Shown here: one piece after another, positions 6,416-43,240 of the stretch
Position numbering within the stretch: position 1 is the stretch's first letter
Layout: each line of letters starts with the position of its first letter
Origin: Saprospiraceae bacterium
GTDB lineage: Bacteria > Bacteroidota > Bacteroidia > Chitinophagales > Saprospiraceae
Direction: 5' to 3'
Assembly: GCA_020846655.1 (NCBI GenBank)
Contig: JADLDL010000201.1
Coordinates: forward strand, 1-54,519
DNA length: 54,519 bases
Notes under the pieces: model-generated
Seen by the model: only the letters and a program-made list of their open reading frames with translations
The model's database searches: none
What the model was told of the DNA's origin: nothing
Position numbers and translations under genes: made by a program

Positions 6416-7423
6416 CTAAAAGCGGCCTTCGAGGAAGGCTTCTACGTCGGCAGCCGATTCGGCTGCATTTTCTTCCTGGGGCCAGTGGCCCGTATTTTGG
6501 TAAATTTTCAACAGCGCTTTTCTGATGTTCCGGTGAAACTCATAGGCGTATTCGGGCGAAATACGGGTGTCTTCGGCGCCCCAGAGGATAAGCGTCGGCA
6601 CCGAAATTTGTTCGATCAGGGTGGCCGGCGGGCGGTTTTCACTCACCTGCGCCCGGTCGGTAAAGGCCTTCCGGTTGCCGGGCCGCAGCAGCAGGTCCAA
6701 ATGGCGCTGTACCAGGGCGTCGGTCACTTTTTGGTCGTCGGAATACACGTCTTCGAGCATAAGCCGGATGAAGGCGCGGGGCGTTATTTTCCGGATCACC
6801 TGGTTGAGCACAGGGGTGCTGGCCAGCCACTGTATGGCTGTGCTGCTTTTTTCTTCAAAACCCGGCGCATCGAGCAGGATGAGCTTGCGGAGCCGCTCCG
6901 GGTGTTCGGTAGCATAAAACCAGGCGATCTGGGCGCCCAAGCCGTTGCCGGCCAGGTGGAAGGGGCGCAGGTTGAGGCGTTCGACAAAGCGGTGGAAAAA
7001 TTCGGCATACATAAAAGCGCTGTAACTCCCCTGCGGGTGCGGTCCGGTGAGGCCGAAACCCGGCAAATCCAGGCTGATGACCTGGTAGTGGCGGGCCAGC
7101 GAATCGGTCCAGCCCACCCAGGTGTGCAGCGAACTATTGGCGTCGTGCAAGAGCAGCATGGGTTCGCCGCGGCCCGTGACGCGGTAGTGGATCGTCATGC
7201 CGTCCATTTCCAGGTAGCGGGAGTCGGGGAAGGTATAGCGCTCCACCAGTTGGTTCACGGGCAAATCTTCGTGCCAGTTGGCGTACAGCCAATAGATCCC
7301 GACCAGGTAAACAGCCCAACGGAGCAAGCGGGAAATACTGAGGATACCCAACCATTTTTTGATGGTCGAGGGGGTGTCGGGCGGGGCAGCCGGTTTGTCC
7401 GGATTACTGAGGTTTTCTTCCAT
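6416..7423 (-). CDS. Alpha/beta hydrolase-fold protein lacking the nucleophile serine
   Basis: A 335-residue alpha/beta hydrolase with an N-terminal membrane anchor (about residues 28-48) and a typical fold: LLLHDANSSLHTW around the oxyanion region, LDLPGFGLTGPHP, a cap, LILWGAEDTRI (acid loop) and the histidine in NTGHWPQEE. At the nucleophile elbow the sequence is A-G-N-G-L-G rather than the family's G-N-S-L-G, so Gly (residue 161) replaces the catalytic Ser. The codon is GGC, one base from AGC. Either this is a single-base change in a real pseudoenzyme or a sequencing error. The ATG at 7423 is preferred to a TTG four codons upstream. It sits 15 bases after the DUF4199 gene and 22 before glsA, suggesting one transcript. 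No substrate can be assigned. Confidence 0.8.
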   Translation of the reverse strand: MEENLSNPDKPAAPPDTPSTIKKWLGILSISRLLRWAVYLVGIYWLYANWHEDLPVNQLVERYTFPDSRYLEMDGMTIHYRVTGRGEPMLLLHDANSSLHTWVGWTDSLARHYQVISLDLPGFGLTGPHPQGSYSAFMYAEFFHRFVERLNLRPFHLAGNGLGAQIAWFYATEHPERLRKLILLDAPGFEEKSSTAIQWLASTPVLNQVIRKITPRAFIRLMLEDVYSDDQKVTDALVQRHLDLLLRPGNRKAFTDRAQVSENRPPATLIEQISVPTLILWGAEDTRISPEYAYEFHRNIRKALLKIYQNTGHWPQEENAAESAADVEAFLEGRF

Positions 7424-35114: not shown

Positions 35115-35636
35115 TCATTTCCGCAAAATCTTCCTGCCCCGGCTCCGAAATGCCGCCGAAGCGTGGGGCAGGTGTTCTTCGATGAGCAAGCGCAATTCAG
35201 GCCGGAGTTCGGGCACTTGTTCACAAATTTTATCCAGCACGGTCATCGAAAACGCCCGGATGGCCACGGCTTCCTGTGGGTCGGCCAAAAACCGGAAACA
35301 CAGGTCGGCCAGATCGCCCAGCAGGGCTTCGGGGATGTCGACGTCCTCCAGAATACGCACCACGTTGCGTTTGACGGCGTCGTGCACGCCGGGTTCGCCG
35401 GCTTTGGCCACCATCCGGGGCAGCCAGGGCTCCAATAGTTGCGGATGGTACTGGCCGACGTACATGAGCACCCAGGCCGAGCGCTGGTTGAGCCGGTAGT
35501 TAGGGCCCAGGGCAATGTCGAGCAGGGCGGCCAGGCGATCCGGGTCGGCGCCGACCCAGTGGGCCAGCCGGAGGGTCTGGGCTTTGGAGTGTTCGAGCAG
35601 CAGTTGCTCGGTCAGGAAAGTCTGGTGGGTGTTCAT
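35115..35636 (-). CDS. Alpha-helical HEAT-like protein, unknown function
   Basis: A 173-residue soluble protein with no signal peptide, almost entirely helical. Repeated units such as RSAWVLMYVGQYHPQLLEPWLPRMV, DAVKRNVVRILEDVDIPEALLG and VAIRAFSMTVLDKICEQVPELRPEL look like HEAT-type repeats. Such proteins act as binding scaffolds. The ATG at 35636 is chosen since a consensus -7 box lies 19 bases upstream (35655-35662), inside the longer in-frame extension. The 271-base gap downstream holds a small CCGAAGG/CCTTCGG hairpin (35087-35106) and nothing else I can support. Confidence 0.7.
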   Translation of the reverse strand: MNTHQTFLTEQLLLEHSKAQTLRLAHWVGADPDRLAALLDIALGPNYRLNQRSAWVLMYVGQYHPQLLEPWLPRMVAKAGEPGVHDAVKRNVVRILEDVDIPEALLGDLADLCFRFLADPQEAVAIRAFSMTVLDKICEQVPELRPELRLLIEEHLPHASAAFRSRGRKILRK

Positions 35637-35654
35637 GGCCGGAAAAGCAGGCCA

Positions 35655-35662
35655 CAAAGGTA
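35655..35662 (-). promoter_or_regulatory. Bacteroidota -7 box for the HEAT-like gene
   Basis: TACCTTTG on the minus strand, full consensus, 19 bases before the ATG at 35636. It supports the shorter start. Confidence 0.5.
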
Positions 35663-35716
35663 CGGCCGGGCAGGCATTTTCAGGGATTGAAAAATACCGC
35701 CCGGCCGCGCCCCTGG

Positions 35717-36148
35717 TCAATACCGCTCGGGCAATTTTTTGAAATACGGGCCGAGCCATTCGTGGGTGAAGGCCAGCGTCCAGCGCATGTCGGCCGGTAC
35801 GAGGTAGAGGTCGGCCATACCGACCGAGGCGAGCAAGGCAGTGAAAAAACGCTTGGAGGAATAGCAGCGCAGGCCCCAGTCGCCAAACTGCTCGAACAAC
35901 AGCACTTCCGTAACGTTCTGGCGCTTCGCCATTTCCACTGCCAGCGGGCCCTCCGTTTTTTCCACGAGGTTAAAACTGTAAATATGCCACAAGAACGACG
36001 GCGGCGGCACCCGGCCTTCCCAAAAATGCGCTTTCCAGTCTTCTTTCAATTGGCGGACGGCTGCCACATCCAGGCGTTCAAAAGACACGTTGTGCGCGGT
36101 CAGGGCCAGTTCGAGCGGATTTTGGTACGCAGAGGGTTTGAATTGCAT
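35717..36148 (-). CDS. Hypothetical cytoplasmic protein
   Basis: A 143-residue soluble protein that I do not recognise. Features: no signal peptide or membrane helix, a mixed alpha/beta pattern, and an aromatic-rich C-terminus (RWTLAFTHEWLGPYFKKLPERY). The segments LKEDWKAHFW and SFLWHIYSFNL are the most distinctive and faintly recall small DUF4275-type proteins; this is weak. The ATG at 36148 gives a natural start. Codon use matches its neighbours, so it is likely a real gene. It is followed after 80 bases by the HEAT-like gene on the same strand. Confidence 0.6.
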   Translation of the reverse strand: MQFKPSAYQNPLELALTAHNVSFERLDVAAVRQLKEDWKAHFWEGRVPPPSFLWHIYSFNLVEKTEGPLAVEMAKRQNVTEVLLFEQFGDWGLRCYSSKRFFTALLASVGMADLYLVPADMRWTLAFTHEWLGPYFKKLPERY

Positions 36149-40282: not shown

Positions 40283-42694
40283 CTACCCCACCACGCCCAG
40301 CACCATTTCCAGCGTCCCCTTTGCCTGTTTCATGCTCCGGATTTCATCCTGCACCAGGATCAGTTCTTTGTTGGTCTGCTTGAGGTGCAGGCCCATCACC
40401 CGGCCTTTTTCGCCGATCAACTTGACGATCCGCTGGAACTGCTCGGTTTCAAAAAACGAGGACTGCGGGTCGCTCACAAAGTAGCAGCGCAATTTGCCGC
40501 CCTTGAGGATCAGCCGTTCGAAGCCCAGTTTTTTGCAAATCCAACGCAGGCGCAGCGCCTCAAACAGGAAACTGACCTGCTTGGGCAGTTTACCAAAACG
40601 GTCCTGCAACATGTTGGTGAACACCTCGATGCCGGCCTCGTCTTCGATTTCGTCGAGTTGGGTGTAGAGGCTGAGGCGCTCGTTGGTGTTGGACACATAC
40701 TCGTCGGGGATGAGCATTTCGACGTCGGTTTCGATGGTCACGTCGCGCACGTAGGCGCCTTTTTGGGCAAGTTCGTCTTTGAACAGGTCTTTGAAATCGG
40801 TTTCCTTGAGTTCCTGGATGGCTTCGTCGAGAATTTTTTGGTAGGTTTCGTAGCCGATGTCGGCGATGAACCCTGATTGTTCGCCGCCGAGCAGGTTGCC
40901 GGCGCCGCGGATGTCGAGGTCGCGCATGGCCACCTGGAACCCTGAGCCCAGGTCGCTGAATTCCTCGATGGTGCGTAGGCGTTTGCGGGCTTCCTGGGTG
41001 AGCACGCTCATGGGCGGCGCCAGCAGGTAGCAGAAGGCCTTGACGTTGGAGCGGCCCACGCGGCCGCGCAACTGGTGCAGGTCGGATAGGCCGAACATGT
41101 CGGCGCGGTTGATCAGGATGGTGTTGGCGTTGGGGATGTCGAGGCCGGTTTCGATGATGTTGGTGCACACCAGCACGTCGTGTTTGCGGTCGATAAACTC
41201 CACGAGAACCTTTTCGAGGTGGTCGGCCTCCAATTGGCCGTGGGCCATGGCAATGTCGACATCAGGGCAGATCCGGCGCAGGAGTTCGACCATTTTGGGC
41301 AGGTCGGTCACGCGGTTGTGCACAAAAAACACCTGCCCACCGCGGTGGATTTCGTAGTAAATGGCGTCTTTGACGAGGTCTTCGTCGAACACACGGATTT
41401 CGGTGTGGATCGGCTGGCGGTTGGGCGGCGGCGTGCGCAGGATGCTCATGTCGCGAGCAGCCATGAGGCTGAACTGGAGCGTGCGCGGGATGGGGGTGGC
41501 GGTGAGCGTGAGCGTGTCGACGTTGACTTGCAGGGCGCGCAGTTTTTCTTTGGCGGCTACGCCAAATTTTTGCTCTTCGTCCACCACCAGCAAGCCGAGG
41601 TCTTTGAATTTAGCCTCTTTGTTGAGCAGGGCATGCGTGCCGATGACGATATCAATTTGGCCGGCGGCCATTTTTTTGAACACCTCGGTTTTCTCTTTGG
41701 CAGAGCGGAAGCGGTTGAGGTAGTCTACCGTGACGGGGAAATCCTTGAGGCGTTCGCTGAAGGTTTTCCAGTGCTGAAGGGCCAGGATGGTGGTGGGCAC
41801 CAGCACGGCGGCCTGTTTGCCATCGGTCACGGCTTTGAAGGCGGCGCGGATGGCCACCTCGGTTTTGCCGAAGCCTACGTCGCCGCAGATGAGGCGGTCC
41901 ATGGGATATGCTTTTTCCATGTCGGCCTTCACGTCGGCGGTCGATTTGACCTGATCGGGGGTGTCTTCGTAGATAAAACTGGCTTCGAGTTCGTTTTGGA
42001 GGTAGCCGTCGGGCGGGAAGGCGTGGCCGGGCGCGGCGCGGCGCTTGGCGTAGAGTTTGATGAGTTCGGCCGCAATGTCCTTGATTTTCTTTTTGGTGCG
42101 GGCCTTGAGTTGTTTCCAGGCTTCGGAGCCGATTTTGGAGAGTTGGGGTGCTTCGCCTTCTTTGCCGACGTACTTCGAAATTTTGTGCAGCGAGTGGATG
42201 CTGACGTAGAGGATATCGTTGTTTTTGTACACCAGCCGCACGGCTTCCTGGGTTTGGCCGCCGATTTCGATTTTTTGCAGGCCGGAGTATTTGCCGATGC
42301 CGTGGTCGATGTGGGTCACGAAATCGCCGGGCTGGAGTTCGCGGAGCAGCCGCACGTTGAGCGATTGTTCTTTGGTAAAACCGGTGCGGAGTTTGAAGGC
42401 GTGGAAGCGCTGGAAAATCTGGTGGTCAGTGAAACAGGCGATTTTGAGGTCTTCGTCGATGAAGCCGGCCGAGAGGGCGGTTTCGACGGGGTGCCACTCG
42501 ATTTTGGCTTTCAGTTCCTTGAAAATAGACTGTAGGCGGGCGAGTTGTTTGGGATTGTCCGAGCAGATAAAAATTTCATAGCCGTTGGCCTGCCACTCGT
42601 GCAGGTTGCGCAGGAGCAAGTCAAAATTTTTGTTGAACGAAGGCTGAGGTTTGGCGTGGAAAGCCAAACTGCGGATACTGCCGGAATGCGTCAT
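40283..42694 (-). CDS. mfd: Mfd (transcription-repair coupling factor) lacking its N-terminal UvrB-homology module
   Basis: An 803-residue translocase homologous to Mfd from domain 3 to the C-terminus. The start MTHSGSIRSLAF leads directly into FHAKPQPSFNKNFDLLLRN, which is domain 3. The RNA polymerase-interacting domain follows (FVTHIDHGIGKYSGLQ), then the two RecG-like motor lobes: Walker A GDVGFGKT (271-278), DEEQ, TATPIPRTL, QLRGRVGRS, and the translocation TRG segment. Domain 7 is present to the end. E. coli Mfd has Walker A near residue 630 and 1148 residues in total, so about 350 residues (domains 1a, 2 and 1b) are missing. That module binds UvrA. A perfect -7 box lies 21 bases upstream of the ATG, so the short form can be expressed. 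Motor residues are all intact, so it is not a decayed gene. Confidence 0.85.
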   Translation of the reverse strand: MTHSGSIRSLAFHAKPQPSFNKNFDLLLRNLHEWQANGYEIFICSDNPKQLARLQSIFKELKAKIEWHPVETALSAGFIDEDLKIACFTDHQIFQRFHAFKLRTGFTKEQSLNVRLLRELQPGDFVTHIDHGIGKYSGLQKIEIGGQTQEAVRLVYKNNDILYVSIHSLHKISKYVGKEGEAPQLSKIGSEAWKQLKARTKKKIKDIAAELIKLYAKRRAAPGHAFPPDGYLQNELEASFIYEDTPDQVKSTADVKADMEKAYPMDRLICGDVGFGKTEVAIRAAFKAVTDGKQAAVLVPTTILALQHWKTFSERLKDFPVTVDYLNRFRSAKEKTEVFKKMAAGQIDIVIGTHALLNKEAKFKDLGLLVVDEEQKFGVAAKEKLRALQVNVDTLTLTATPIPRTLQFSLMAARDMSILRTPPPNRQPIHTEIRVFDEDLVKDAIYYEIHRGGQVFFVHNRVTDLPKMVELLRRICPDVDIAMAHGQLEADHLEKVLVEFIDRKHDVLVCTNIIETGLDIPNANTILINRADMFGLSDLHQLRGRVGRSNVKAFCYLLAPPMSVLTQEARKRLRTIEEFSDLGSGFQVAMRDLDIRGAGNLLGGEQSGFIADIGYETYQKILDEAIQELKETDFKDLFKDELAQKGAYVRDVTIETDVEMLIPDEYVSNTNERLSLYTQLDEIEDEAGIEVFTNMLQDRFGKLPKQVSFLFEALRLRWICKKLGFERLILKGGKLRCYFVSDPQSSFFETEQFQRIVKLIGEKGRVMGLHLKQTNKELILVQDEIRSMKQAKGTLEMVLGVVG

Positions 42695-42714: not shown

Positions 42715-42722
42715 CAAAAGTA
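42715..42722 (-). promoter_or_regulatory. -7 box for the short mfd
   Basis: TACTTTTG on the minus strand matches TAnnTTTG. It sits 21 bases before the ATG at 42694, immediately next to the repeat cluster, and would give a leader of about 14 bases. Confidence 0.5.
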
Positions 42723-42727
42723 AGTTC

Positions 42728-43240
42728 GTTTTTCGTGTTTCGTGTTTCGGGGTGCGGGGTGCGGGGTGCGGGGGGCGTGTTTCGAGGTGCGTGAAGGTTT
42801 TGCTTCTTCAAAATCCTTGGCCAGTTATTGTTTAAATACCCTCTGCGCCCTCGTAGTCCTCCCCTTGCCCCCTCCAAAGGGGGAAATTTTGACTGGCTAC
42901 GCCAGCCAAAACCGCGTTAAATGGAGCGTAGCGACATAACATTTCCCCCTTTGGAGGGGGCTGTCGATTACCCACAAGTTGATCTGAAAAAATCGCAACT
43001 GACCTCTCCGAGGTCATCCTCAAAGCGAACCTATTCTTTTGATTTTCAATATCATTTAGTTGGCAATCTCTTTTATCAACTTGTGGGTAATCGGGAGTGG
43101 AGGGGGCAGGGGAAGGACTACGGGCGCAAAAAAAACACAAAACATCCTGTACAACCATACCGTGTGCCTATTTACAAAACACACGCACCCCGAAACACGC
43201 GCCCCGAAACACGCGCCCCGAAACACGAAACACGAAACAC
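42728..43240. repeat. Nested inverted-repeat cluster upstream of mfd
   Basis: About 510 bases with no gene. The outer arms are GTTTCGTGTTTCGGGGTGCG-type repeats (42730-42796) and their inverse CGCGCCCCGAAACACGAAAC (43181-43240), both built of short tandem units. Inside them lie further inverted pairs: 42846-42876 with 43098-43127; CCCCCTCCAAAGGGGGAAAT (42868-42887) with its exact inverse (42941-42960); GATTACCCACAAGTTGAT (42966-42983) with its exact inverse (43075-43092); and a small GACCTC/GAGGTC hairpin at 43001-43015. The left end touches the mfd promoter and the right end touches the stop codon of the TPR-like gene (TAG at 43242-43240). Confidence 0.9.

Follow-up and report, generated by a model that had tools for sequence, protein, structure and literature searches.

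The Mfd protein of E. coli (TRCF; PDB 2eyq / 6x26) is one polypeptide, and studies of Mfd treat it as one chain, in which the UvrA-binding module is joined to the motor by a tether, is covered by domain 7 (D7), and becomes accessible only once Mfd has loaded on a stalled polymerase. According to PMC3025350, domain 2 (D2) packs on D7, which covers the UvrA surface and keeps the motor in check. The same paper describes Mfd without domains 1a, 2 and 1b (D1a-D2-D1b) as deregulated in both its ATPase and translocase activities, with most of the repair strand bias gone. Residues R165 and R181 of E. coli Mfd serve both in UvrA binding and in the contact with D7, according to PMC3025350 and PMC7385628. 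On loading, D1-D3 swings off and the UvrA surface is exposed, according to PMC7864632, which also names R929, R953 and Q963 as residues of the TRG motif.

Here, the window is a stretch of 54,519 nucleotides from a Saprospiraceae bacterium (contig JADLDL010000201.1), in which the gene recognizable as mfd encodes complete Mfd domains 3-7, has its own promoter-like box, and is without the UvrB-like module. The features of interest are as follows.

40283 to 42694, minus strand: mfd motor half (domains 3-7), with its ATG at 42694 and its stop ending at 40283, 803 amino acids
40454 to 40726, minus strand: TRCF domain (D7), from a profile match and residue alignment, including the DRF motif equivalent to E. 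coli D1048/R1049/F1050
41048 to 41365, minus strand: Helicase_C motor lobe (D6), query residues 445-550
41477 to 41902, minus strand: DEAD motor lobe (D5), query residues 266-407
42167 to 42337, minus strand: RNA polymerase-interacting domain (RID, D4), PF02559, residues 121-177 of the 804-residue query
42715 to 42722, minus strand: promoter box of the -7 type, TACTTTTG, its first base 28 nt ahead of the ATG
42735 to 42793, no strand assigned: dispersed heptamer-type repeat ahead of the motor half, also found directly after the stop of the N half on contig C146
43182 to 43240, no strand assigned: inverted copy of the heptamer-type repeat, 388 nt further on
35117 to 35759, minus strand: family 93 gene, 214 amino acids, about 4.5 kb downstream of the motor half

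The reading that we favor, with a probability of roughly 0.8, is that the window gene is the C-terminal subunit of an Mfd split by recurrent fission in the D1b-D3 linker, and that the product would be a two-subunit Mfd in which the D2-D7 clamp forms in trans; the docking of the two subunits is what we infer from E. coli Mfd. The domain order of the two halves together is the same as in the E. coli protein, and the RID, the motor, D7 and the D2 residues R165, R181 and F185 are all matched in the split halves, the difference being that D1a-D2-D1b and D3-D7 are here two gene products. The motor half alone is equivalent to the laboratory construct Mfd deltaBHM, which is without domains 1a, 2 and 1b (as described in PMC3025350); whereas that construct lacks the module altogether, the split genomes encode it as a second gene. 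Other Saprospiraceae have a conventional Mfd, for example the one at L079, which has 69% identity in the motor half and is a single frame of 1,130 amino acids. The 978-residue Mfd chain of PDB 6m6a, from Thermus, has fewer residues ahead of the aligned region (residue 302 of the window protein aligns with residue 175 of the chain), but it too is a single chain, as against two genes here.

The identity of the motor half is clear from profile searches. TIGR00580 (mfd) gives 913.2 bits against a cut-off of 800, and the Pfam domains each score above their own cut-offs: RID (PF02559) 65.2 bits with a cut-off of 23, the two lobes of an SF2 RecG-like motor 78.1 bits (DEAD) and 79.9 bits (Helicase_C), and the TRCF domain (D7, PF03461) 88.1 bits. 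Walker A, GDVGFGKT, starts at residue 271. UvrB_inter had no match in this frame in the Pfam search, so that the UvrB-homology module is not in the same polypeptide as the motor; nor was there any trace of the N half elsewhere in the window by tblastn (best E 0.31). The fused Mfd of a congener, G030 (a frame of 1138 amino acids), matches the window motor half from its residue 335 onward, starting at residue 12 of the latter, and the stretch missing from the window protein is therefore about 320 residues, comprising D1a-D2-D1b. The original prediction, made from the letters alone, described the gene correctly as an Mfd that starts at domain 3, in the position of Walker A, in the presence of a -7 box just upstream and in which domains are absent. 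A longer frame of 864 amino acids with a TTG start was considered and judged unlikely, because it crosses the intergenic repeats, and the ATG and -7 box are better placed.

The box was read against the Bacteroidota consensus. The pattern TAnnTTTG occurs 25-30 nt ahead of the start in 11 of the 25 split motor genes tested, five of these 11 genomes belonging to one subclade, compared with a background of 2.1% in 20,000 random 60-mers drawn from all fetched DNA rather than from intergenic DNA alone.

The original prediction had proposed a search of the genome for a separate UvrB-like polypeptide of domains 1a-2-1b, and such a polypeptide is present. The genome of the window (G000; 6.44 Mb, 398 contigs, 96.7% complete) was searched with PF17757 (UvrB_inter), which exceeded its cut-off in two places: contig C57 has a frame of 685 amino acids that is regarded as UvrB, and contig C146 has a second, separate frame. 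The latter (C146:6613-7653, GTG start, 346 amino acids) scores 90.7 bits, and the UvrB-homology module is thus encoded in the same genome. The protein begins with D1a, continues with D2, and ends just past D1b; it is not a full UvrB with helicase domains, since the gene stops there. When compared by phmmer with solved structures, it matched the E. coli Mfd N-terminal structures best, 2b2n and then the D2 structure 4dfc. The AlphaFold2 model has a mean pLDDT of 88.7, and its D2 superimposes on that of 4dfc (the core UvrA/TRCF complex) with a TM-score of 0.94 by target and an rmsd of 1.0 Å. The top-ranked Foldseek match of the model is 7egt, a UvrB N-terminal structure. Domains 1a-2-1b of UvrB do indeed fold like the N half; the N half differs in being without the further UvrB domains and in having Mfd structures ranked first by sequence. 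The C146 protein is accordingly predicted to fold as domains 1a-2-1b. The genome also contains uvrB, uvrC, and two full-length frames plus one fragment of uvrA.

Two local features of the N halves are worth recording. In G000 there is a tandem Ser-Gly insert at residues ~117-139 (L145 ~6961-7023), encoded by a repeat spaced at 12 nt, and over part of it the pLDDT of the model falls below 50. The N halves of G001, G006, G013, G016, G027, G031 and G035 have in common an extra C-terminal tail, KxFPxLF, after the D1b strand, the G001 version being KNHPALF; this tail is possibly a docking or degradation peptide.

The residues through which D2 and D7 would meet are well conserved. Every one of the 30 N rows (split or unclassified genomes) has the equivalents of R165 and R181, and 27 of the 30 have that of F185, with leucine instead in G011, G019 and G036. 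On the other side, the D7 motif DRF (D1048, R1049, F1050) is found in all 28 motor rows (again split or unclassified genomes), the window motor half among them, and is kept in fused relatives too; the equivalent of E1045 is not conserved, fused relatives included. UvrA binding alone may account for the conservation of the D2 residues.

Purifying selection acts on both halves. For the N half, dN/dS is 0.030-0.137 in 11 of 15 non-fused pairs, the other four being saturated, and 0.124 and 0.167 in two fused pairs; these values are rough, because many dS exceed 1 and the pairs share genomes. Whether the genome is split or fused, the N half changes at a higher rate than the motor half. The median N/C distance ratio is 2.26 over 231 pairs from 22 non-fused congeners, and for fused proteins it is 2.52 (6 congener pairs), 2.5 (45 same-family pairs) and 2.18 (325 outgroup pairs), so that over all pairs the rate is not clearly raised. 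Among seven independent split pairs the median is 2.72 with a range of 1.09-4.19, three of them exceeding the fused-pair range (at most 3.4), and given that these pairs reach 4.19, some relaxation of the N half in some lineages is possible. The N and C distances of 22 split genomes are correlated (r 0.83), with none of 2000 permutations as high.

The split is widespread in the genus. Of its 42 genomes in the collection used, including that of the window, 34 are split, 4 are fused, and 4 were left unclassified. The original prediction had asked whether the short form is clade-wide, and it is common among relatives without being universal. A short motor gene whose 5' end is visible and free of N sequence is seen in 31 of the 42, and the split therefore does not rest on one assembly. 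G207 was scored as split by frame length alone, and G208 and G211 through records with identical start coordinates; G010, G017 and G027 were scored by the N gene's own stop, with no motor match found there. The fused genes of G005, G014, G030 and G033 are each one frame, of 1128-1182 amino acids. The unclassified genomes are G024, G025, G209 and G210; in G025 a junction resembling the fused form lies where a contig ends.

N sequence is present in 37 of the 42 genomes, four of those being the fused ones; of the 34 split genomes, 30 have a separate N half. Genome searches did not find an N half in G018, G028, G034, G207 and G210, where the best remaining matches are UvrB-like frames of 688-737 amino acids with 24-27% identity. 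The first four of these are the split genomes in which no N half was found (4/34). The genome of G028, which is 97% complete, has a short motor frame that is intact. Some irregular genes were also seen: the N half of G017 (L050, G017:C386) has an in-frame stop mid-gene, from decay or read error; the motor half of G018 (L133, G018:C106) is in two overlapping frames; and G020 has a second frame of 167 amino acids (L011 4563-5064) with a 73% match to the last 52 residues of the motor half, perhaps a partial duplicate.

Outside the genus, the single gene is general. In a family sample of 150 genomes from 112 genera (3 genomes being from the genus of the window), no convincing split was seen among the listed matches from the 111 other genera. 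Several matches are partial, and those listed that span the whole motor lie in frames of 1,078-1,341 amino acids, except in G097. The 869-residue frame of G097 was considered as a second split lineage and rejected, as it leaves the contig end and contains N sequence. A strong Mfd match was not obtained in eight genomes of this sample (G067, G068, G069, G086, G109, G112, G191 and G194). In other families of the order, 21 of 23 genomes (20 families) have a single frame of 1,089-1,218 amino acids, the exceptions being G046, where the gene is cut between contigs, and G050, without a match. In the class sample there is an Mfd match in 132 of 139 genomes, a few of them cut or broken; at G331:C145:8868-11075 there is an Mfd frame of 839 amino acids, shorter than those of its relatives. 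Among named records, the nearest carry the titles of Saprospiraceae, Chitinophagales or Bacteroidetes MAGs, and one that of Thermoanaerobaculia. The record with this last title, L071 (JAKLJF010000311.1), has an Mfd 92% identical to that of the window and the same coordinates as the G208 match, and its name is probably wrong. No description of a split mfd was seen among the papers listed in the literature searched, most subscription journals being outside it. The naturally split Mfd is a real and uncommon feature.

The break site is the D1b-D3 linker, and matches the position of the linker in fused relatives. In split genomes the stop of the N gene is directly past the 'VFLEK'-like strand of D1b, and the nearest motor-half ATG (GTG in G012) is 9-21 residues ahead of 'PQP' in the PQPSFNKNF motif. 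By eye, the N tail of G000 looks like the linker in the fused protein of G030, and the N tail of G032 like the one in the fused protein of G033. A structure model of the fused G033 protein, in which the break stretch is a loop between two strands, is poor (pTM 0.47), too poor for judging the D2-D7 interface. The arrangements of the two genes are graded. In G008 both halves are in one frame, parted by TAG, then CAC, then ATG. In G004 the N stop overlaps the first of two possible motor ATGs as ATGA, and in G032 there are 102 nt from the N stop to the motor ATG. The halves are 51-68 kb apart on one contig in G007, G009 and G012, and in the remaining 21 split genomes with both halves found, including that of the window, they are on different contigs.

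Within the genus, fission took place repeatedly or was undone several times, and the fused members are scattered. On the best motor tree, and likewise on the best N tree, fused and split states require a minimum of 4 changes (unclassified rows omitted), and the well-supported branches of the motor tree alone force 2 changes for the fused label. Several independent fissions, or one ancestral fission followed by several re-fusions, are both compatible with the trees; re-fusion would be easy given adjacent pairs in the same frame, such as that of G008, and unlikely where the halves are dispersed. Neighboring genes give some further indication. A family 25 gene is upstream of the N half in G000, of the N-C pair in G032 and, with one intervening frame, of the fused mfd in G030. 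A family 2 gene, acetyltransferase-like by eye and from a family that may hide paralogues, is upstream of the N-C pair in G032, of the N half in G007, G009, G021 and G026 and, again with one intervening frame, of the fused mfd in G014. From these positions, the N half tends to retain the old upstream neighbors. In G030 the fused mfd is followed immediately downstream by a homologue of the family 93 gene. Most neighborhoods are otherwise unlike between subclades, and the use of neighbor genes to gauge the number of motor-half moves was dropped, because synteny decays too fast across subclades.

In the genome of the window the halves were probably parted through dispersed repeats. Contig C146 ends 250 nt past the N gene, within repeats. 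The repeat core CGTGTTTCGGGGTGCG (a 16-mer) has 84 exact copies on 31 of the 398 contigs of G000, often in tandem arrays, and its reversed control has none in that genome. By eye, no comparable repeat pair was seen at the break in the other genomes displayed; G006 and G031 have other short repeats ahead of the motor half. The same intergenic stretch of the window also holds a 36-nt inverted repeat of the CCCTCCAAAGGGGGAAAT type (42867-42961).

The repeats do raise the question of whether an intact mfd was broken at the repeat cluster at 42.7-43.3 kb in assembly. With the N contig ending in repeats, and the same repeat ahead of the motor half, the far separation in this particular genome could be a mis-join. 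For the split itself this explanation is very improbable: the N gene is closed by a stop of its own ahead of the repeat, the motor half likewise has a separate start and box, three genomes hold both halves on one contig 51-68 kb apart, and 34 of 42 genomes of the genus are split. A full truncation without a partner is ruled out by the N half on C146. The original prediction had gone further, stating that D7 has no partner, that the motor is released from autoinhibition, and that it is unable to call in excision repair. The first is wrong or unsupported, given the N half on C146 and the D2-contacting DRF kept in D7; the second is probably wrong, as the missing module is a separate gene; and the third is likewise wrong or unsupported, since 30 of the 34 split genomes have an N half, which keeps its UvrA-binding residues and is under purifying selection.

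It could still be that the short protein is by itself a translocase of RNA polymerase, derepressed and no longer coupled to excision repair, the N fragment being irrelevant or decaying. Such behavior would be in keeping with the deregulated E. coli protein with little repair strand bias (PMC3025350), with the four split genomes in which no N half was found, and with the internal stop in G017. A deregulated, repair-blind motor is nevertheless less likely than a two-subunit Mfd, and we regard it as quite improbable, in view of the many separate N halves with low dN/dS, the N/C rate not clearly raised over all pairs, the conserved interface residues and the confident fold of the N half. Alternatively, the N half might have a job of its own, for example regulation through UvrA binding in competition with UvrB or D7, without assembling on the motor. 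The halves are usually apart, and because R165 and R181 serve in both UvrA binding and the D7 contact, their conservation suits either role. This too is improbable: the D7 residues that face D2 are kept in 28 of 28 motor rows, though in fused relatives too, and adjacent pairs persist in G004, G008 and G032.

For the favored two-subunit Mfd, a mechanism can be suggested by analogy with the E. coli protein. The UvrB-homology module (D1a-D2-D1b), supplied by the second gene (C146:6613-7653), would dock on the motor subunit via the D2-D7 clamp and so restrain the motor. Once the motor loads on a stalled RNA polymerase, the N subunit would be exposed or released for UvrA binding. Transcription-coupled repair would then be carried out by a two-protein Mfd whose UvrA adaptor is able to dissociate and is dosed separately. 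With the clamp open, the N subunit would be held near the polymerase by non-covalent contacts alone, and UvrA recruitment may therefore depend on its abundance.

A more far-reaching proposal can be offered tentatively, at slightly less than even odds: that this is a natural two-subunit Mfd with a freely dissociating UvrA adaptor under its own promoter, by which the cell sets how often RNA polymerase is cleared without repair relative to clearance with repair, and that about four independent cuts hit this one linker in the genus. If the linker was indeed cut independently about four times, the covalent tether between adaptor and motor would be dispensable for Mfd. The genus gives a graded series of bacterial gene fission, and with fused, adjacent and dispersed mfd side by side it offers a ready test of the need for the tether and for the choreography that goes with it.
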